Notes under the pieces: model-generated
What the model saw: the letters and a program-made list of their open reading frames with translations, nothing else
Told to the model about the DNA's origin: nothing
Database searches by the model: none
Position numbers and translations under genes: made by a program
Source of the DNA: Rhizobium sp. BK602
Lineage (GTDB): Bacteria > Pseudomonadota > Alphaproteobacteria > Rhizobiales > Rhizobiaceae
DNA length: 64,000 bases
Assembly: GCF_014195095.1 (NCBI RefSeq)
Contig: NZ_JACIBC010000001.1
Location: 744,001-808,000, forward strand
Direction of reading: 5' to 3'
Part shown: positions 3,197 through 50,653 of the stretch, one piece after another
Layout of the letters: every line of letters starts with the position of its first letter
Position numbering within the stretch: the first letter of the stretch is position 1

Positions 3197-3913
3197 TCAG
3201 GCCTCGTTGACCGTTTCGCCGAAAACCTGTTCGAAGGATTCGCGCAGGCGGATATCCACATCCGCCATCATCACCGGCAGGCCGAGATCGACGAGGCTGG
3301 TGACGCCGTAGGCGGATATTCCGCAGGGAACGATTCCCGAGAAATGCGTGAGATCGGGATCGACGTTCAGCGACAGGCCGTGAAACGTCACCCATTTGCG
3401 CACGCGGATGCCGAGCGCGGCGATCTTGTCCTCGGCGACAGTCCCATCCGGCAGCAGCGGTTTTTCCGGGCGGCGCACCCAGACGCCGACACGATCCTCG
3501 CGCCGCTCGCCGCGGACATTCATCGAATCAAGCGTGCGGATGATGACTTCTTCCAGCGCGGCGACGAAAGCGCGGATGTCCTGACGCCGGCGCTTCAGAT
3601 CCAGCATGACATAGGCCACGCGCTGGCCGGGACCATGATAGGTATATTCGCCGCCGCGTCCGGTGGCGAAGACCGGGAAACGCTCGGGCTCGATCAGATC
3701 CGACGCATTGGCGCTCGTGCCGGCCGTATATAAGGGGGGATGCTCGACCAGCCAGACGAGTTCCGCAGCCGCGCCATCGGCGATCGCGGCCACTTCGGCC
3801 TCCATGGTCGCCACCGCCTCGTCATAGGGCACGGGACAGTCGGCGATGCGCCAACGCACCGGCGGCGAGCCGGCAAGCGGAAACATTTGATGTTCGAGAT
3901 CAGTGCGGAGCAT
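3197..3913 (-). CDS. lipB: Octanoyl-[ACP]:protein N-octanoyltransferase LipB
   Basis: Transfers octanoyl groups from acyl carrier protein to lipoyl domains of 2-oxoacid dehydrogenases and the glycine cleavage H protein, the first step of lipoate synthesis. The family motif [12 protein letters not shown], the catalytic lysine in [10 protein letters not shown] and the catalytic cysteine in [12 protein letters not shown] are all present. The reading frame is open further upstream to 4108, but the ATG at 3913 ([11 protein letters not shown]) gives 238 residues and places AAGGA about 10 bases upstream. The extra N-terminal sequence resembles no LipB. It is convergent with the XRE gene, with 15 bases between the stops. 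Confidence 0.95.
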
Positions 3914-43200: not shown

Positions 43201-44250
43201 ATGATCCTCAATCCATTCGACGACCGGGTCGAACGCTCGAAGACCAAGATCGCCATTACCTTTGTTAGCTTGATTGCGTTCAACATCGCGGCCTGGATTT
43301 GGGCATGGGTTGCCTTCGCCGACAGGCCGTCGCTGCTGGGCACGGCCTTTCTCGCCTATATGTTCGGCCTCCGGCATGCGTTCGACGCCGACCATATCGC
43401 CGCGATCGACAATGTGGTGCGCAAATTGATGCAGGAAAAGAAACAGCCTCATGCCGTCGGCTTCTTCTTTTCGTTCGGTCATTCGTCCATCGTCATCATC
43501 GCCTCGATCGTGATCGCCGCCACGGCGGCGGCGATGCAGAACCAGCTCGATTCCTTCCATGAGGTCGGAGGCGTCATCGGAACGGCGGTCTCGGCCGCCT
43601 TCCTGCTGCTGATCGGCATCGCCAATCTCTTCGTGCTGAAAGGCGTATGGTCGGCCTTCAACCGTGCCCGGAGAGGCGAAAGGATCGCCGACGAGGATCT
43701 CGACATGCTTCTGGCCGGAGGCGGTTTCCTCGCCCGCATCTTCCGGCCGATGTTCAAGGTGGTCACGCGTTCCTGGCACATGTATCCGATCGGCTTCCTG
43801 TTCGGCCTCGGCTTCGATACGGCGACGGAAATCGGGCTTCTCGGCATATCTGCGGCGCAGGCGGCGCAAGGCATGTCGATCTGGACGATCCTCGTCTTCC
43901 CGGCGCTCTTCACCGCTGGCATGTCGCTGATGGATACCATCGACAGCACGCTGATGACCGGTGCCTATGGCTGGGCCTTCGTCAAACCGGTGCGCAAGCT
44001 CTGGTACAATCTGACCATCACCGCCGCTTCTGTCGTCGTCGCCATCTTCATCGGCGGCATCGAGGCGATGGGGCTGATCTCCGACAAGCTCGGCCTCGAA
44101 GGCGGCATCTGGCGCTTCATTGGCGAACTCAACGACAATCTCGCCAATTTCGGCTTTGCGATCGTCGGCATCTTTCTGCTGAGCTGGCTGGTTTCGACCA
44201 TCCTCTACAAGACAAAAGGCTACGACAGCTTGCAGATCAACCACTCCTGA
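43201..44250 (+). CDS. Nickel/cobalt permease of the NiCoT (HoxN/NixA) family
   Basis: 349 residues with about eight membrane helices. The signature RHAFDADHIAAIDN in helix 2 binds the metal; FFFSFGHSS and LFGLGFDTATEIGLL are the second and third family motifs. It is an inner-membrane secondary transporter for Ni2+ or Co2+; the two cannot be told apart here. No nickel or cobalamin riboswitch or NikR site is apparent in the 140 bases upstream. It precedes the FecR gene by 86 bases. Confidence 0.92.
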   Translation: MILNPFDDRVERSKTKIAITFVSLIAFNIAAWIWAWVAFADRPSLLGTAFLAYMFGLRHAFDADHIAAIDNVVRKLMQEKKQPHAVGFFFSFGHSSIVIIASIVIAATAAAMQNQLDSFHEVGGVIGTAVSAAFLLLIGIANLFVLKGVWSAFNRARRGERIADEDLDMLLAGGGFLARIFRPMFKVVTRSWHMYPIGFLFGLGFDTATEIGLLGISAAQAAQGMSIWTILVFPALFTAGMSLMDTIDSTLMTGAYGWAFVKPVRKLWYNLTITAASVVVAIFIGGIEAMGLISDKLGLEGGIWRFIGELNDNLANFGFAIVGIFLLSWLVSTILYKTKGYDSLQINHS

Positions 44251-44336
44251 CGCATCATCGGTGGTATCGACGTGGCATGCCGTGGGACCGACATCATTGT
44301 CCGCGGCCTGCGGCTATGTGCAGTGAGGGGCATGAC

Positions 44337-44867
44337 ATGACCCAAACGAGCGGCATTCTCGGTCTTGCGCTGATGGTTGGCATCCTGTCGGTTGCTGCCA
44401 TCGATCCCGTTCTGGCGCAGGCCGCAAACTGTTCACGGCAGCCAACGGTCAGCGATCGAAGGCAGACGCTCGATTGCGAGCCGGGTCTCAGCGTCACCAT
44501 CGAACGCGGCGCGCACTACCGGTTTGCCGACCGCAATCGCGACGGCCAGCTGGACGCCATCGTCCTCAACAGCAAGGCAGCGCTGGTCGATGTCGAGGGC
44601 GGCCGCATTCGCGGCGGCTTCGAGGTGGTGACGCCGCAGGCGATCGCGGCGGTGCGCGGCACGCGCTGGGCGGTGGATGCAGAGCGTGGCAAGACGTCGG
44701 TGCTGGTGCTGCGCGGCCGCGTCGCCGTCAACAAGGTGGCGACCGGCGAGGGCGTCACGCTCGGACAAGGGCAGGGCGTGGATGTCGACCGTGGACGTTC
44801 GCCCCTTCGCGTCACCCAGTGGGGACAACCTCGCATCAACGCATTGATGGCCCGTCTCGGCCAGTGA
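44337..44867 (+). CDS. FecR-domain periplasmic protein
   Basis: 176 residues from ATG 44337. A signal peptide (MTQTSGILGLALMVGI ... VLAQA) is followed by a FecR domain: VEGGRIRGGFEVVTPQAIAAVRGTRWAVDAE and SVLVLRGRVAVNK. Here the protein is not an anti-sigma partner: there is no sigma factor gene nearby, and it has no N-terminal cytosolic part. Five bases later begins the CHASE2 cyclase gene. FecR-CHASE2 cyclase pairs recur in alphaproteobacteria, so the protein may deliver a signal to the periplasmic CHASE2 domain. Confidence 0.85.
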   Translation: MTQTSGILGLALMVGILSVAAIDPVLAQAANCSRQPTVSDRRQTLDCEPGLSVTIERGAHYRFADRNRDGQLDAIVLNSKAALVDVEGGRIRGGFEVVTPQAIAAVRGTRWAVDAERGKTSVLVLRGRVAVNKVATGEGVTLGQGQGVDVDRGRSPLRVTQWGQPRINALMARLGQ

Positions 44868-44872
44868 GAACC

Positions 44873-46732
44873 ATGCGCAGACCGCCACTGCAGACGCTGA
44901 TCGCGCTTGTCCTGACCGCCGTCTGGGGTGCAAGTCTCGGAATCGCGCATCTGCGGGGCGACATCCCCTTTATCGACGGCGCCGAGGCGACACTGACGAA
45001 TCTGAGGAATATGCTGGGCGGCAGCCGCCAGCCGCCCGATATCGTCACCATCGTTGCCATCGATGATGAAACGGCGCGCGTCGCCGGACATTATCCGCTG
45101 CCTCGCGCCACGCTCGCCAAGGTCGTCGATGCCATTGCCGCGCTGGGACCGAAGGCGATCGCGCTGGACATGTTGCTGGTCGATCCCGGCACGGAGGCCG
45201 ACGACGCGGCTCTGGAACAATCGCTGAGGCGCACCAATGCGGTGCTGGCCGCCGCCGGCATCTTTCCCGAAAGCCGGCAACGCGTCGCCGACAGCAGCCG
45301 GGAGCCGCTTGCCCGCGTGCCGAGCGCGTTGCAATTCCTCGAACCGCTGCGGCGTTTTGCCGAGGCCGCAAGCTACGGCATCGTCAATGTCCAGACGGAC
45401 AAGACGGGAACACCGCGTTTCGTGCCGCTGCTGTTTCGCAGCGGCGAGCGCATCGAGCCATCCTTCTCCCTGCGCGTCGCCTCCGCGGCAACCGGAGAGC
45501 ATACGACCGTCATCTCCGACCTCATCAAGATCGGCGACCGCTCGGTGCATACCGATACCGGCTATCTCATGCCGCTCTCCTTCTACGGTCCGCGCGGCAC
45601 GATCCGCACCATCAGCGCCAGCGCCGCCCTGAACGGACAATTACCGGACGAAGCGATCAGGGACCATATCGTCGTCATCGGCGCGACCGTGACCGGGGCA
45701 GGTGACGTGTTTCCGACACCGTTCGATCCGATCCTGCCCGGTGTCGAGGTCATCTCCACCTCGATCTCTCATCTCATCGCCCGCGACGGCCTCATCCGCG
45801 ATCACGGCGTACGCCTGCTCGACGTTTATTTCGCCATCGGGATGCCGCTGCTTCTCGTCGGCCTGCTGGCCTGGCGCCGCAATACGATCGGCCTGATACT
45901 GACGATCCTGGTGGTCCTTGCATGGATGGCGATCAATATCAGCGCCTTCAAGCACGGTATCTGGCTGAGCGCCGCTCTGCCCGCCGCCGCGACAGTGCCG
46001 CCGGTCCTGCTTTTCGGCGCGGCGCAACTCTGGCTCGGCCGCCGGCAGGCCAGGCATTTTGCCGAGCAAAGCGACCTCCTGCAGCGCATCCAGGCGCCAG
46101 GGCTCGCCGAACATCTTGCCCGCGATCCCGGTTTCCTGGCCCAGCCCGTGCGGCAGGAGGCGGCTGTGGTCTTCATCGACATCAACGGCTTTACAGGCTT
46201 GAGCGAAGCCATCGGTCCGACGGCGGTACGCGAATTGCTGAACGGATTTTACGATCTCGTCAGCGAAGAGGTGACAGCCAGCGGTGGCGCCATCACCAGC
46301 TTCATGGGTGACGGCGCCATGATCCTCTTCGGCCTGCCGCAGCCGAAACGAGCCGATCCCGCCAACGCAGCCCGCTGCTGCATCCGCCTTGCAGACCGCA
46401 TGCGGCACTGGCTGGCGATGCTGCCGGAAGCGACGGCATCGCGCATCGGCTTCAAGATCGGCGCACATTTCGGCACCATCGTCGCCTCCAGGCTCGGCGG
46501 TGGCGATCGCCAGCAGATCACGGCGACGGGCGATACGGTCAATGTCGCCAGCCGCCTGATGGAGGTGGCCGCGCGCAACGGTGCGGAAATCGCCATCAGC
46601 AACGATCTGCTGCAATCGGCCGGACGGGACAGCGAGCCCTATCTACAGGGCAAGCTGGACGGCCCGATCGATGCGAGCCTGCGCGGCCGCGCCGGCTCCT
46701 TGTCCGTATGGCTGTGGCGCAGCCAGGGATGA
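44873..46732 (+). CDS. CHASE2-domain class III nucleotidyl cyclase
   Basis: 619 residues: a first membrane helix, a periplasmic CHASE2 domain (about 30-325, with IVTIVAIDDETAR and FDPILPGVEVISTSI), three membrane helices (about 330-400), and a cyclase domain (about 430-610). Both metal-binding Asp residues are present, D436 in FIDINGFTGL and D480 in FMGDGAM, and the transition-state motif VNVASRL is intact. The residues that select adenine in adenylate cyclases, Lys and Asp in mammalian enzymes, are Ser476 and Thr550 here. It probably makes cAMP, but another nucleotide is possible. It is coupled to the FecR gene upstream. Confidence 0.88.
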   Translation: MRRPPLQTLIALVLTAVWGASLGIAHLRGDIPFIDGAEATLTNLRNMLGGSRQPPDIVTIVAIDDETARVAGHYPLPRATLAKVVDAIAALGPKAIALDMLLVDPGTEADDAALEQSLRRTNAVLAAAGIFPESRQRVADSSREPLARVPSALQFLEPLRRFAEAASYGIVNVQTDKTGTPRFVPLLFRSGERIEPSFSLRVASAATGEHTTVISDLIKIGDRSVHTDTGYLMPLSFYGPRGTIRTISASAALNGQLPDEAIRDHIVVIGATVTGAGDVFPTPFDPILPGVEVISTSISHLIARDGLIRDHGVRLLDVYFAIGMPLLLVGLLAWRRNTIGLILTILVVLAWMAINISAFKHGIWLSAALPAAATVPPVLLFGAAQLWLGRRQARHFAEQSDLLQRIQAPGLAEHLARDPGFLAQPVRQEAAVVFIDINGFTGLSEAIGPTAVRELLNGFYDLVSEEVTASGGAITSFMGDGAMILFGLPQPKRADPANAARCCIRLADRMRHWLAMLPEATASRIGFKIGAHFGTIVASRLGGGDRQQITATGDTVNVASRLMEVAARNGAEIAISNDLLQSAGRDSEPYLQGKLDGPIDASLRGRAGSLSVWLWRSQG

Positions 46733-46757: not shown

Positions 46758-47357
46758 TTATCCGCGCCACATGGGAATGATGGACATGACCAGCAGGCAG
46801 GCGAGCGAGATGTTCAGTACTCGCCATTGCCATGCCGCTTTCAGCAGGCGGCCAAGCAATCGCCCGAGAGCGCACCAGACCGCGAGCGAGAATGCGGCGA
46901 CGAGGCAGAAGGTCGAGCCGAGCAGAACTGCCAGGACAGCCGGGCTGCTCGCCAGGGCGGCGAATGAGGCCGCGGCGCCGACCGTCATCGCCCACCCCTT
47001 GGGATTGTACCAGAGCATCCAGACACCGGCCGCGAAGCTGGTCGGCTTAACCACGCTCCCTGCAATGCGCGGCGGGCCGCTTCTGCCGATGCGGACGGCA
47101 AGCCAGACGAGGTAGAGTGAACCGAGCGCCTTCATCACGACCTGCAGCGCCGGCAGGGCCATCAGCAGGCTGCCGAGGCCGGCTGCCGCCGCGCAGGCGA
47201 TCGAACCGAGACCGACGGCGCAACCGGCCATGACCGGGATGGAACGACGAAAGCCGAAATGGGCGCCGGAAGCGGTGGCAAGGGTCGTGGCACCGCCCGG
47301 CGTGATCGTCGAGACAAGGGCAAAGAGGATCAGCGGCAGCAGGGATTCGATGGTCAT
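46758..47357 (-). CDS. LysE-family amino acid exporter
   Basis: 199 residues with five to six membrane helices. The first helix segment STITPGGATTLATASGAHFGFRRS is the LysE/RhtB signature, and ALGSLYLVWLAVR is also conserved. It exports an amino acid or related compound across the inner membrane; the substrate is unknown. It is divergent from a LysR regulator with 98 bases between the starts, the usual arrangement for a LysR-controlled exporter. Confidence 0.88.
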   Translation of the reverse strand: MTIESLLPLILFALVSTITPGGATTLATASGAHFGFRRSIPVMAGCAVGLGSIACAAAAGLGSLLMALPALQVVMKALGSLYLVWLAVRIGRSGPPRIAGSVVKPTSFAAGVWMLWYNPKGWAMTVGAAASFAALASSPAVLAVLLGSTFCLVAAFSLAVWCALGRLLGRLLKAAWQWRVLNISLACLLVMSIIPMWRG

Positions 47358-47361
47358 ATGA

Positions 47362-47391
47362 GCCTATCTCCATTTTCAGCGAGAGATAGGC
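47362..47391. promoter_or_regulatory. 9-bp inverted repeat in the LysE leader
   Basis: GCCTATCTC and GAGATAGGC are exact complements 12 bases apart, immediately upstream of the LysE start at 47357. It could be a regulator site or a leader hairpin that hides the ribosome binding site. Confidence 0.45.
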
Positions 47392-47431
47392 GAAGGCACG
47401 GCATCAGAAAAACGAATGTTGAAGGCCATAT

Positions 47432-47450
47432 GCATTAGCATCTATAATGC
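47432..47450. promoter_or_regulatory. LysR-type operator (T-N11-A dyad)
   Basis: GCATTA-N7-TAATGC is a perfect dyad containing the T-N11-A arrangement of LysR boxes. It ends six bases before the LysR ATG and lies in the divergent gap with the exporter gene. Confidence 0.5.
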
Positions 47451-47455
47451 TACCC

Positions 47456-48331
47456 ATGGCCCGAAATTTCGACATCGCCCTGATCAGAACCTTTGCGACC
47501 GTCGCCGACCACGGCAGCATGACGGTCGCCGCCAACAGGCTGCACATGACGCAAGGTGCCGTCAGCCAGCAGATCAAGCGGCTGGAGGACATGCTCGACA
47601 GTGCACTTTTCGAACGCGACAGGCGCGGTCTGAAGCTGACGGACAAGGGGGAGCGTCTGCTCGGCAATGCACGGCTGCTGCTGATCCTCAACGACGACAT
47701 CTGGGCCGATATGACCGAGAGCGCCGTGGAGGGCAGCGTGCGGCTTGGCGTCCCCTACGATCTCGTCGGGACGACATTGGCGCCCGTTCTGAAATCCTAT
47801 GCCGAACGCCATCCGCAAGTGGAGATTTCGCTCGTCTGTGCCTCCTCGCCGGAACTGCTGCAGGCGCTGGACAATGGCGGCATCGATCTCGGCATCGTCG
47901 AGGAGCCGGTCGGCGCCTCGCATGGCGAGTGCCTCGCTGTCGATCGGCTCGTCTGGGTCGGCGCAAGGGCAGGCAATGCCTATCGCAAGGATCCTTTGCC
48001 GGTCTCGATGGTCGCCGATACCTGCGCTTTCCGGCCATCGGTCTTCGCGGCGCTGCGCGACGACGGGCGGCGCTGGCGAACCGTATTCGAAAACGGCAAT
48101 ATCGAAGCGACGACTGCGACGGTGCGCACGGATCTTGCCGTAACCGCTTGGCTTGCCTCCACCGTTCCGGCCGATCTCGACATCCTTGGCGCAGGTGAGG
48201 GACTACCGGAGCTGCCGGCCTTTTCCATCAATCTGCATATGCCCAGGGGCAAGGCGTCACCGCCTGCAGGCGAACTCGCCCGCCATATTCGGGACGGCTT
48301 GATGCGGCCGCGACAGGTCACGGCCGCTTGA
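47456..48331 (+). CDS. LysR-family transcriptional regulator
   Basis: 291 residues from MARNFDIALIRTF. The N-terminal winged helix-turn-helix has SMTVAANRLHMTQGAVSQQIKRLE and LFERDRRGLKLTDKG. The C-terminal effector domain starts near residue 90 (GSVRLGVPYDL) and has the usual periplasmic-binding fold (GGIDLGIVEEPV). It probably controls the divergent LysE exporter and itself. The stop is 15 bases from that of the convergent citrate synthase gene. Confidence 0.9.
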   Translation: MARNFDIALIRTFATVADHGSMTVAANRLHMTQGAVSQQIKRLEDMLDSALFERDRRGLKLTDKGERLLGNARLLLILNDDIWADMTESAVEGSVRLGVPYDLVGTTLAPVLKSYAERHPQVEISLVCASSPELLQALDNGGIDLGIVEEPVGASHGECLAVDRLVWVGARAGNAYRKDPLPVSMVADTCAFRPSVFAALRDDGRRWRTVFENGNIEATTATVRTDLAVTAWLASTVPADLDILGAGEGLPELPAFSINLHMPRGKASPPAGELARHIRDGLMRPRQVTAA

Positions 48332-48346
48332 GGACGTATCAGCCGG

Positions 48347-49441
48347 TTACGCCGCCCGCGGCAGCGGACCGACATAGCGTGACTGCGGCCGGATGAGACG
48401 ACCATCCAGGATCTGCTCGCGCGCATGGGCGATCCAGCCGACCGTGCGGCCGATCGCGAAAACGCCGGTGAAGGAGCTGCGCGGGAAGCCGAGGGCGTCG
48501 AGCAGCAGGGCGGTATAATATTCGACATTGACGTCCAGCGGCCGATCCGGCTTGCGTTCCTTGAGGAGCGCCAGGGCGGCGGCCTCGATCGCCTCGGCGA
48601 GCGCGATGCGGCCGGCATCGGCCTGGCCGCTTGCGAAGATGGGTTTCAGCGCCGTCTTCAACGCATCGGCGCGCGGATCGCGAACCCTATAAATGCGATG
48701 GCCGAAGCCCATCAGGCGCTCGCCATTATCGAGCGCCTGCGATAGCCACGGCCGCGCATTGGCCGGCGTGCCGACGGCATCGAGCATATCCAGAACCGGG
48801 CCGGGAGCGCCGCCATGCAGCGGCCCCTTGAGAGCGCTGATCGCCGCCAGGACCGACGAAGCGAGCCCCGCATGGGTCGAGGCGATGACGCGGGAGGCGA
48901 AGGTGGAGGCGTTCAGGCCATGGTCGGAGATCGTCACCAGATAGGCGTCGAGGCCGGCCGTCTGCTCCGCCGTCGGGAGCTTGCCCGTCAGCATGCGCAG
49001 GATGTCGGCGGATTGCGACAGCGAAGCGTCCGGTCTGATCGGCGCTTCGCCCTTCTGAAGGCGCAGTATGGCCGGCAGGAACACAGCAGGCGCGGCCATC
49101 AGGCGGATCGCCGTGGCGAAATCCTCTCCGTCCGCGATACGGGCAAGCAGCGCGCGCATGGCCTCCACCGGCGACAGGGCAAGCACGCCCGCGTCGGCTG
49201 ATTCGACATGTGCGAACAACTCTTCTCGGGCAGGGCCTAATTGCGCCTTGATGCTTTTCGCGTCGACGTGTTCCTCGAAGAGACCGTCGAGCAGCAGGGC
49301 GGCGACATCCTCGAAACGGCTGGTCGCCACCAGATCGTCCAGCGAGACGCCGCGAATGATCAGCCGGCCGGCAGCGCCGTCCACATCGGACAGCTTGGTT
49401 TCGGCGGCAATGACATCCTCAAGACCACTTTTCATCATCAT
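48347..49441 (-). CDS. Citrate synthase-family protein (citrate/methylcitrate type), Glu at catalytic Asp position
   Basis: 364 residues. The two catalytic His regions are clear in DHGLNASTFASR with GPLHGGAPG and in GFGHRIYRVRDPRADAL. At the third catalytic site, where most citrate synthases have NVDF, this protein reads NVEYYTA. Glu in this place is known in some family members. The closing GWIAHAREQ and LIRPQSRYVG are intact. It should condense oxaloacetate with acetyl- or propionyl-CoA. It is divergent from the HTH-fused citrate synthase, with 78 bases between the starts that hold two palindromes. Confidence 0.88.
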   Translation of the reverse strand: MMMKSGLEDVIAAETKLSDVDGAAGRLIIRGVSLDDLVATSRFEDVAALLLDGLFEEHVDAKSIKAQLGPAREELFAHVESADAGVLALSPVEAMRALLARIADGEDFATAIRLMAAPAVFLPAILRLQKGEAPIRPDASLSQSADILRMLTGKLPTAEQTAGLDAYLVTISDHGLNASTFASRVIASTHAGLASSVLAAISALKGPLHGGAPGPVLDMLDAVGTPANARPWLSQALDNGERLMGFGHRIYRVRDPRADALKTALKPIFASGQADAGRIALAEAIEAAALALLKERKPDRPLDVNVEYYTALLLDALGFPRSSFTGVFAIGRTVGWIAHAREQILDGRLIRPQSRYVGPLPRAA

Positions 49442-49478
49442 TCTCCTTTGACTATGCCCCTAGATCAGACCTATTTTT

Positions 49479-49490
49479 ATTGACGTCAAT
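49479..49490. promoter_or_regulatory. Palindrome ATTGACGTCAAT in the citrate synthase divergent gap
   Basis: A perfect 12-base palindrome midway between two divergent citrate synthase genes. Its centre is 20 bases from that of a second palindrome with the same ATTGA ends (49500-49509), which puts both on one face of the helix. Confidence 0.55.
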
Positions 49491-49499
49491 CTTGATGCA

Positions 49500-49509
49500 A
49501 TTGATCAAT
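49500..49509. promoter_or_regulatory. Palindrome ATTGATCAAT in the citrate synthase divergent gap
   Basis: A perfect 10-base palindrome ending 10 bases before the ATG of the HTH-citrate synthase. It shares ATTGA/TCAAT half-sites with the palindrome at 49479-49490 and overlaps the translation start region, which fits repression. Confidence 0.5.
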
Positions 49510-49519
49510 GTGAGGACAT

Positions 49520-50653
49520 ATGAGCTGGCTGACGGCCGAGCAGGCACTGAACCTGCTGGGCACAAAATCGCAGACGCTTTACGCCAATGTCAGCCGCGGC
49601 CGTATCCGCGCGAAGCCGGATCCGGCCGACAGCCGACGCAGCCTCTACTTCACCGATGATGTGAAGCGGCTGGCGACGCGCCATGCCGGGCGGCGCAAGA
49701 CCGAGACGGTGGCGGCGGAAGCCATTCAATGGGGCGACCCGGTGCTGCCTTCGGCATTGTCGACGGTCTCCGACGGGCGGCTCTTTTATCGCGGGCGGGA
49801 TGCCGCCGGTCTGGCCGAGCATGCCACATTGGAGGAAATCGCGCGTCTTCTGTGGGATATGAAGCGACCATTGCGGCTCGAGAGGCAAGGTGGGAGCAAG
49901 AATCCGCCATCCCTGAGCGCTGCCTTCTCCGCCCTGGCCGAGCGCGCCACCACCGACCTGCCTTCACTGGGGCGTTCGCTGTCAGCCCTCCAGAACGAAG
50001 CGGAAAGCGTCTTCGGCAGCATCGCGGAAGCACTGGCGCCCGGAAATCGCGACCTGCCGCTGCATCAGCGCCTCGCCATAGCCTGGGACAGGCCAGACGC
50101 CAGCGATATCATTCGCCGCTGTCTCGTGCTCTTCGCCGATCACGAACTTAACGCCTCGACATTTACGGCCCGTATCACGGCTTCGGCCGGCGCGACCCTG
50201 TCGGCCTCGGCACTCTCCGGGCTTTCCACCTTGACCGGACCGCTGCATGGCGGCGCATGGCAAAGCGTGCGATCGCTGATGATCCGCGCCGCGGCGATCG
50301 GGCCGGAGGAGGCGGTGCGTGGCTATCTGGCGGAAGGGCGGCCGCTGCCGGCGGTCGGCCATCCCCTCTATCCCGACGGCGATGCACGCGCCAAGGCGTT
50401 GCTCCCGCATATGACATTGCCGCCCTTGTTCGCGGAGGTTCGCGAAAAAGCTGAGGAACTGGTGGGCGAGCGCGTCAATGTCGACTTTGCCTTGACGGCG
50501 ATGACCTCGGCCTATCACCTGCCTCCCGACGCGCCGCTGATCATCTTCGCGCTTGCCCGCACGGTCGGCTGGCTGGCGCATGCCATGGAGCAATCGACAA
50601 GCGGTCATCTCATCCGCCCACGGGCGCGTTACGTCGGACCAGCGGTGACGTGA
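49520..50653 (+). CDS. Citrate synthase with N-terminal helix-turn-helix domain
   Basis: 377 residues. The first 60 form a MerR/excisionase-like HTH: WLTAEQALNLLGTKSQTLYANVSRGRIRAK, then a wing with SRRSLYFTDDVKRL. The remainder is a citrate synthase with its key residues kept: DHELNASTF, GPLHGGAW, AVGHPLYPDGDARAKA, catalytic Asp in VNVDFALTAM, and ARTVGWLAHAMEQ. It is likely both enzyme and DNA-binding protein. It is divergent from the plain citrate synthase gene, and two palindromes lie between them. The 3' end overlaps that of the VOC gene by 25 bases. Confidence 0.9.
   Translation: MSWLTAEQALNLLGTKSQTLYANVSRGRIRAKPDPADSRRSLYFTDDVKRLATRHAGRRKTETVAAEAIQWGDPVLPSALSTVSDGRLFYRGRDAAGLAEHATLEEIARLLWDMKRPLRLERQGGSKNPPSLSAAFSALAERATTDLPSLGRSLSALQNEAESVFGSIAEALAPGNRDLPLHQRLAIAWDRPDASDIIRRCLVLFADHELNASTFTARITASAGATLSASALSGLSTLTGPLHGGAWQSVRSLMIRAAAIGPEEAVRGYLAEGRPLPAVGHPLYPDGDARAKALLPHMTLPPLFAEVREKAEELVGERVNVDFALTAMTSAYHLPPDAPLIIFALARTVGWLAHAMEQSTSGHLIRPRARYVGPAVT

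Follow-up and report, generated by a model that had tools for sequence, protein, structure and literature searches.

A citrate synthase fused to a helix-turn-helix domain is a candidate transcription factor with a conserved proposed operator

The HTH-CS gene encodes a citrate synthase (CS) domain preceded by a helix-turn-helix (HTH). It is found in a 64,000-nucleotide stretch of Rhizobium sp. BK602 DNA (contig NZ_JACIBC010000001.1, positions 744,001 to 808,000; hereafter the window), where it occupies positions 49520-50653 of the forward strand (377 amino acids). It is divergent from citA, which encodes a CitA-type citrate synthase, at 48347-49441 of the reverse strand (364 amino acids). Comparative data indicate that HTH-CS is probably a transcription factor of the one-component type that regulates its own gene and citA. 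Its citrate-synthase pocket would sense a metabolite that resembles oxaloacetate or (methyl)citrate. Both open reading frames were verified at their coordinates, with 78 bp between the start codons, which confirms the divergent pair of citrate synthases reported in a preliminary description of this DNA. That description had also assigned to the fused protein the catalytic Asp, the two catalytic His regions, and an N-terminal HTH. These are borne out by residues D322, H208, H243, and H281 and, for the HTH, by family comparison and a structural model. The 6.3-Mb BK602 genome contains three citrate synthase genes, namely this pair and a GltA-like gene elsewhere.

The proposed operator is a dyad with the consensus ATMTTGAT-N7-ATCAAYRT, located directly upstream of the HTH-CS start. 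In BK602, 8 bp separate the end of the dyad from the HTH-CS start codon, and 44 bp separate its beginning from the CitA start codon (Table 1). Each of the first 30 loci read carries TCAAT(C/A)TTGA-N9-TCAA(C/T)(A/G)T, or a form with one mismatch, upstream of the HTH-CS start. Among 80 named loci, which are the best 80 of 593 and the source of all counts for named loci given here, 58 have an exact match in the 200 bp upstream; the best match in this interval has one mismatch in 11 loci, two mismatches in 4, and from three to nine in the other 7. Shuffled controls, one per named locus (n = 80), gave best matches with 5 to 9 mismatches. With at most two mismatches, the dyad is present in 102 of 110 loci. 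Its arms agree at 7-8 of 8 positions in 57 of these, at 6 in 33, and at 5 in 12. Relative to a mechanically chosen HTH-CS start codon, the dyad ends in the range from 4 bp inside the gene to 31 bp upstream in 96 of the 102, and 42-73 bp upstream in the remaining 6.

Table 1. Features of the citA/HTH-CS locus (positions are those of the window)
Feature	Position	Strand	Details
CitA-type citrate synthase gene	48347-49441	-	364 amino acids; H174, H209, H248, E307 at catalytic position
HTH-citrate synthase (HTH-CS) gene, proposed autoregulating transcription factor	49520-50653	+	377 amino acids; profile, model
MerR-type winged helix-turn-helix, residues 1-55	49520-49684	+	model, family profiles, invariant residues
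Citrate-synthase-fold domain, residues 75-377	49742-50650	+	H208, H243, H281, R290, D322, R347, R366, R368; model
Divergent intergenic region, 78 bp between start codons	49442-49519	.	open-reading-frame coordinates
Conserved dyad, proposed operator TCAATCTTGATGCAATTGATCAATGT	49486-49511	+	comparison of loci
Dyad arms ATCTTGAT and ATCAATGT	49489-49496 and 49504-49511	+	comparison of loci
12-bp perfect palindrome ATTGACGTCAAT, overlapping the left dyad arm	49479-49490	.	in 27 of 102 dyad-bearing loci

HTH-CS genes are present in 33 of 199 genomes of the same order. A profile search at E 1e-20 matched 40 genomes; in these 33 the match spans the HTH, and the other seven are other citrate synthases. 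All 33 carry a dyad with at most one mismatch at the HTH-CS locus, and a genome-wide search found three such sites elsewhere (in G023, G093, and G171; G and L numbers are our handles for genomes and loci). By eye, the off-locus sites of G023 and G093, which have one mismatch, lie downstream of or inside genes. A wider sample of 398 genomes from the phylum contains 53 that match the family profile at E 1e-60. From these, 22 further genomes were searched; those left aside had been covered before (12), were near relatives (11), or carried the most distant members (8). A site with at most one mismatch occurs in 21 of the 22 and is at the HTH-CS locus in 20, and 22 of the 23 sites are at that locus. 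Same-order genomes that lack HTH-CS have such a site in only 4 of 33 cases. Besides the operator, the BK602 genome contains six further matches. Because each has two mismatches, the regulon is taken to be local, and a genome-wide regulon in BK602 was rejected.

A further site may mark an additional target. G041 and G081, which belong to one family, share a second, identical dyad-like site with two mismatches (L144:3259-3284 and L145:2928-2953). The gene directly downstream of this site was named by eye as encoding an AbrB-like membrane protein, and ccoN- and hemN-like genes are nearby.

A resemblance exists between the dyad and the FNR box, TTGAT-N4-ATCAA. The HTH might accordingly be merely structural and HTH-CS an ordinary enzyme, with a different regulator, such as an FNR/FixK protein, occupying the dyad. 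However, the dyad spacer is 7 bp (or 6 bp) instead of 4 bp, sites with at most one mismatch occur almost only at HTH-CS and are absent from 29 of 33 genomes without it, and the dyad follows HTH-CS when the partner gene changes. This explanation is therefore very improbable.

The dyad tracks the HTH-CS gene, not its neighbour. Within the order, a divergent citA gene adjoins HTH-CS in 31 of 33 genomes (28 of 30 loci that were read, together with G041, G081, and G116 by coordinates). Partners in the 80 named loci are a divergent CitA in 58, a family III CoA-transferase in 15, and neither in 7. The CoA-transferases, assigned by PF02515 in three tested cases and by similarity to those three in the remainder, are divergent in 14 loci and co-oriented in one (L093). 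The seven loci with neither partner include L065, which is cut by a contig end, and L097, which is of a 2-hydroxyacid type. Seven plasmid regions were read from 61 records found. Their partners are a CoA-transferase (L148), CitA (L154), a 2-hydroxyacid dehydrogenase-FAH-SDR-transporter cluster (L153), an MFS transporter with a 2-hydroxyacid dehydrogenase (L150), and none of the partner types (L152); the two remaining regions, L149 (SDR first) and L151, have an operon ending MFS-VOC-HTH-CS.

Genes of the methylcitrate cycle are another class of partner. The prpB and prpC genes, each above its NCBIfam equivalog cut-off, are divergent from HTH-CS in L186, L188, L192, and L199. In L188 and L192 the next gene after prpBC is acnD, at 958.9 and 1114 bits; both copies are cut by the end of the stretch, and the full-length cut-off is 1419.85. 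L189 has acnD (1781.8 bits) divergent from HTH-CS, and then prpF (616.7 bits, cut-off 440.55).

The dyad is kept in these arrangements. It is exact or has one mismatch with CoA-transferase partners (L148, L190, L193, and L195), with 2-hydroxyacid clusters (L153, L191, and L198), and with prp genes (L186, L188, L189, L192, and L199). It was found with at most one mismatch in 13 of 20 regions from the wide sample. Two representatives, one from Bryobacterales and one from Chloroflexota (L127 and L142), belong to the seven named loci with three or more mismatches but have by eye a dyad with a 6-bp spacer, and L141, in which catalytic residues depart, keeps a dyad with two mismatches. Where HTH-CS is last in its operon (L149 and L194), no dyad is directly upstream of the gene, and the intergenic region that heads the operon contains two. 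A quick tree of 137 HTH-CS proteins implies at least eight partner changes, although long branches meet in it and may be misplaced; the well-supported branches alone force fewer, namely four for CitA and three for CoA-transferase. Because the dyad is retained through partner changes, it belongs to HTH-CS. The earlier suggestion that the fused protein controls both genes thus gains strong support, of a comparative kind, from a dyad that is situated between the two genes and tracks HTH-CS across classes of bacteria and across partners.

The two dyads at the head of the SDR-MFS-VOC-HTH-CS operon face each other (L149:3093-3118 and 3260-3285; L194:1096-1121 and 1263-1288). This operon is divergent from a D-glycerate dehydrogenase gene. 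Five Mesorhizobium loci (L095, L096, L103, L106, and L110) are near poly-hydroxybutyrate-type genes, which were named by eye: a thiolase in all five, phaB-like genes in four, patatin in four, and phaR-like genes in three. A tie to the partitioning of acetyl-CoA is possible. Together, the methylcitrate and Mesorhizobium links suggest a theme of short acyl-CoA disposal through oxaloacetate. Clustering of neighbours, which used crude gene calls that included some antisense frames, revealed no conserved neighbour besides the citrate synthases and the CoA-transferase in more than 10 of the 80 named loci.

Citrate synthases are dimers whose active sites are shared between subunits, and the pairing of HTH-CS with CitA is nearly constant in the order. 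HTH-CS and CitA might therefore share subunits in a mixed oligomer, in which CitA tunes the regulator or HTH-CS serves as the regulatory subunit of the enzyme. This is quite improbable, because the CoA-transferase loci and those with another enzyme have no CitA alongside, and because the arrangement is divergent, not operonic.

The citrate-synthase domain of HTH-CS matches PF00285 at 176.3 bits (cut-off 27). It matches 21 NCBIfam citrate synthase models, none above its cut-off (the best is TIGR01800, at 133.4 bits with a cut-off of 421.3), and the NCBIfam scan revealed no model of any kind that the BK602 protein passes. Plasmid records, where annotated, call the protein citrate synthase, citrate synthase family protein, or citrate/2-methylcitrate synthase. 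CDD reportedly has a class of citrate-synthase-like proteins with a MerR-like N-terminus (cd06102), for which a literature search gave no match.

The HTH is most evident at the level of the family. Among 63 members, 51 match HTH_17, 24 match MerR_1, and 23 match MerR at E 0.01. Residues T19, L20, Y21, S25, R26, G27, and Y43 are invariant in the alignment of these sequences, in which the helix TLYxxVSRG is nearly fixed. An AlphaFold model based on this 63-row alignment has a predicted local distance difference test (pLDDT) score of 90.5. It consists of an HTH in residues 1-55, a poorly ordered linker of low confidence in residues 57-74, and a citrate-synthase fold from about residue 75. The HTH modelled alone has a pLDDT of 91. 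Foldseek comparisons with the HTH alone gave TM-scores of 0.73 to DNA-bound GlnR (root-mean-square deviation (rmsd) 1.8) and 0.68 to DNA-bound SoxR (rmsd 2.4), with weak E-values, and no E-value was below 0.001. Among the 50 matches listed, MarR-family chains are near the top by E-value, and the best TM-scores belong to MerR-superfamily chains. A search of solved structures with the HTH profile gave a single weak match (2dbo, E = 0.091). The structure rows from VIA-align mostly span residues 55-368 and so are silent on the HTH.

HTH-CS shares with the MerR superfamily, which includes GlnR, SoxR, BldC, and LiuR, a winged HTH fold and a dyad operator, both predicted in HTH-CS. In contrast to these proteins, it has no known MerR effector domain, and no coiled coil is seen directly after the HTH in the model, in which the linker leads into the citrate-synthase fold. 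That fold aligns with M. tuberculosis CitA (8gi7_D) over 301 residues, with a Z-score of 31.7 and an rmsd of 3.2. Relative to CitA-type synthases, HTH-CS adds the HTH, keeps Asp, and is about 17 residues shorter before this Asp, and most members lack the CoA-side Arg or Lys.

Pocket residues were counted in 110 HTH-CS proteins and compared with those of 86 partner CitA proteins and GltA. The substrate His is present in 109 HTH-CS proteins, the two catalytic His residues in 110 and 108, and the catalytic Asp in 109; L108 and L141 depart at catalytic residues. Three Arg positions common to GltA and CitA are each conserved in all 110, as is a fourth Arg (R368 in BK602), which is usually Gln in CitA. 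The position of GltA Lys310, which corresponds to the CoA-phosphate contact Arg324 of pig citrate synthase, is Pro in 94 of 110 (Pro285 in BK602) and Lys or Arg in only 9, whereas it is Arg or Lys in all 86 partner CitA proteins. The distance from the DPR Arg to the catalytic Asp has a median of 32 residues in HTH-CS (range 32-39), compared with 49 in GltA and a median of 49.5 in CitA. These features fit a pocket that may still hold oxaloacetate or a citrate-like compound and may bind CoA poorly. Conservation on the oxaloacetate/citrate side, together with change on the CoA side, favours an effector that resembles oxaloacetate or citrate over acyl-CoA. The proposal that the protein senses acyl-CoA or oxaloacetate therefore probably holds for its second part, given that the oxaloacetate side is kept in nearly all of the 110, and the acyl-CoA part is disfavoured.

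The complete His/His/Asp triad, found in 108 of 110 proteins, and a fold that aligns so well with CitA raise the alternative of a trigger enzyme, in which HTH-CS regulates and is also an active (methyl)citrate synthase whose turnover is the signal. However, the prevalent Pro at the presumed CoA-phosphate contact and the shortened stretch before the catalytic Asp are unlike the synthases, and the four prp loci have a proper PrpC close by. We regard the trigger enzyme as unlikely.

Computation establishes the two genes, the domain composition, the conserved residues, and the conservation of the dyad and its association with HTH-CS; DNA binding, a dimeric form, the effector, and repression over activation are inferred. 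The citrate-synthase fold would form the dimer and hold the sensor pocket, and the two MerR-type winged helices of the dimer would read ATMTTGAT-N7-ATCAAYRT, thereby controlling the HTH-CS gene and citA. With the dyad so close to the HTH-CS start codon (8 bp), autorepression together with repression of citA is the simplest reading; the position of the site is what suggests the effect on citA. Occupation of the pocket by an oxaloacetate-, citrate-, or methylcitrate-like compound would lift the repression. Perhaps ligand binding to the dimer shifts the spacing of the two HTH domains and so frees the DNA.

Alternately, ligand-bound HTH-CS might activate transcription by remodelling a promoter, as classical MerR proteins do. 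The HTH is of the MerR type, the dyad could sit between promoter hexamers, and by eye many loci have TATAAT-like letters inside the dyad. However, the position of the dyad near the HTH-CS start in most loci favours repression, and no promoter with a 19-20 bp spacer was identified in a scan that allowed spacers of 16-18 bp only. Activation is thus unlikely, if the least so of the alternatives considered here.

Several observations weigh against the proposed role of HTH-CS. The HTH_17 match of the BK602 protein alone is weak (E = 0.0087) and under the Pfam cut-off, and the intact triad is compatible with enzyme activity. A simple scan, restricted to spacers of 16-18 bp, found no sigma-70-like promoter pair on the citA strand. 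Of the further genomes of the phylum, G328 has no site with at most one mismatch, and the only one in G400 is off the locus. One of the 33 genomes without HTH-CS carries an exact match to the dyad. Seven of the 20 wide-sample regions, which are distant (L185, L187, L197, and L200-L203), have no dyad at two or fewer mismatches. By eye, the dyad is also missing from L093, L105, and L108, which have no divergent CitA or CoA-transferase. L105 and L108 are Caulobacterales HTH-CS genes without CitA, CoA-transferase, or dyad, and L108 is perhaps a decaying copy.

The plain partner is a typical CitA. The product of 48347-49441 matches PF00285 at 318.6 bits, is above the cut-off of NCBIfam NF009005 (470.6 bits compared with 332), and has the residues of CitA-type membership, H209, H248, and Glu307 at the Asp position. 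It aligns over nearly its full length with the CitA proteins of B. subtilis (2c6x) and M. tuberculosis (8s9d/8gm9), and has the same Glu in NVE. The preliminary description had singled out Glu at the catalytic Asp position as a contrast between the two proteins. This Glu is present in all 86 partner CitA proteins compared, and the motif NVEF is common to 2c6x and 8s9d, so it is the rule in the CitA subfamily. The new facts here are the conserved operator and the changes of partner, and the Glu/Asp contrast is ordinary.

CitA would be a second, conditionally made citrate synthase that works alongside the housekeeping GltA, and it may serve under an ample supply of acetyl units or C4 acids. RL2508 and RL2509 of R. 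leguminosarum are taken to be this pair, judged from adjacent names alone. One paper counts them as two of the three candidate citrate synthases of that organism (PMC1557990). In a transposon screen, both are scored neutral in both media listed, and RL2234 is scored growth-impaired in one of the two listed media (PMC5118466). Such neutrality is as expected of a conditional system.

No account of an HTH-citrate synthase regulator was found in open PMC papers. Comparative genomics of malonate and propionate regulation in proteobacteria, published in J Bacteriol in 2012, reportedly described four new regulators; the prp branch of HTH-CS may have been published there. PrpR proteins (the sigma-54 type of Salmonella and those of M. 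tuberculosis and Xanthomonas citri) are associated with the same kind of operon as prp-linked HTH-CS, but are different proteins. M. tuberculosis PrpR is described as binding CoA and acyl-CoA (PMC6765138). A report on X. citri PrpR states that it binds GTTGCAA-N2-TTGCAAC, that binding is unchanged by propionate or 2-methylcitrate, and that without PrpR the prp promoter is still induced by propionate, from which the authors suggest further regulators (PMC12153269). LiuR, involved in the use of branched-chain amino acids, is termed a MerR-family repressor in another paper (PMC3223726). S. coelicolor likewise has two citrate synthase genes with a common intergenic region, SCO5831/SCO5832 (citA3/citA4). 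The regulator named there is MtrA, which binds the shared intergenic region, and an mtrA mutant has elevated levels of both genes at late time points (PMC12323332).

Other genes of the window adjoin the pair. Positions 46758-48331 contain a LysE-type exporter gene (reverse strand) divergent from a LysR regulator gene (forward strand), an ordinary exporter/regulator layout. By eye, 43201-46732 contains in a row a nickel/cobalt transporter-like gene and genes for a FecR-like protein and a CHASE2-type adenylate/guanylate cyclase.

HTH-citrate synthases had been noted in other rhizobia, where they are indeed present, and their range extends far beyond this group. By title, the 80 named loci are mostly from alpha-, beta-, and gammaproteobacteria, with one from Bryobacterales and one from a Chloroflexota metagenome-assembled genome. 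The closest named relative of the BK602 protein among the best 80 of 593, a set from which records very near BK602 may have been omitted, is 83% identical and is from a Rhizobium sp. On balance, we slightly favour the view that HTH-CS represents a widespread, undescribed family of regulators, in which a citrate synthase has been turned into a sensor domain that reads oxaloacetate- or citrate-like metabolites through its old active site. One near-invariant operator would be reused for a second citrate synthase, the methylcitrate cycle, family III CoA-transferases, and 2-hydroxyacid clusters. If so, proteins annotated as citrate synthase in many soil and plant bacteria would be regulators, and annotations and metabolic models would be mistaken in treating them as enzymes. 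The family would offer a clear example of the conversion of a central enzyme into a sensor, one whose DNA site is defined and whose ligands can be tested directly. HTH-CS would also be a candidate switch for the disposal of acetyl-CoA or propionyl-CoA, including in some proteobacterial methylcitrate operons.

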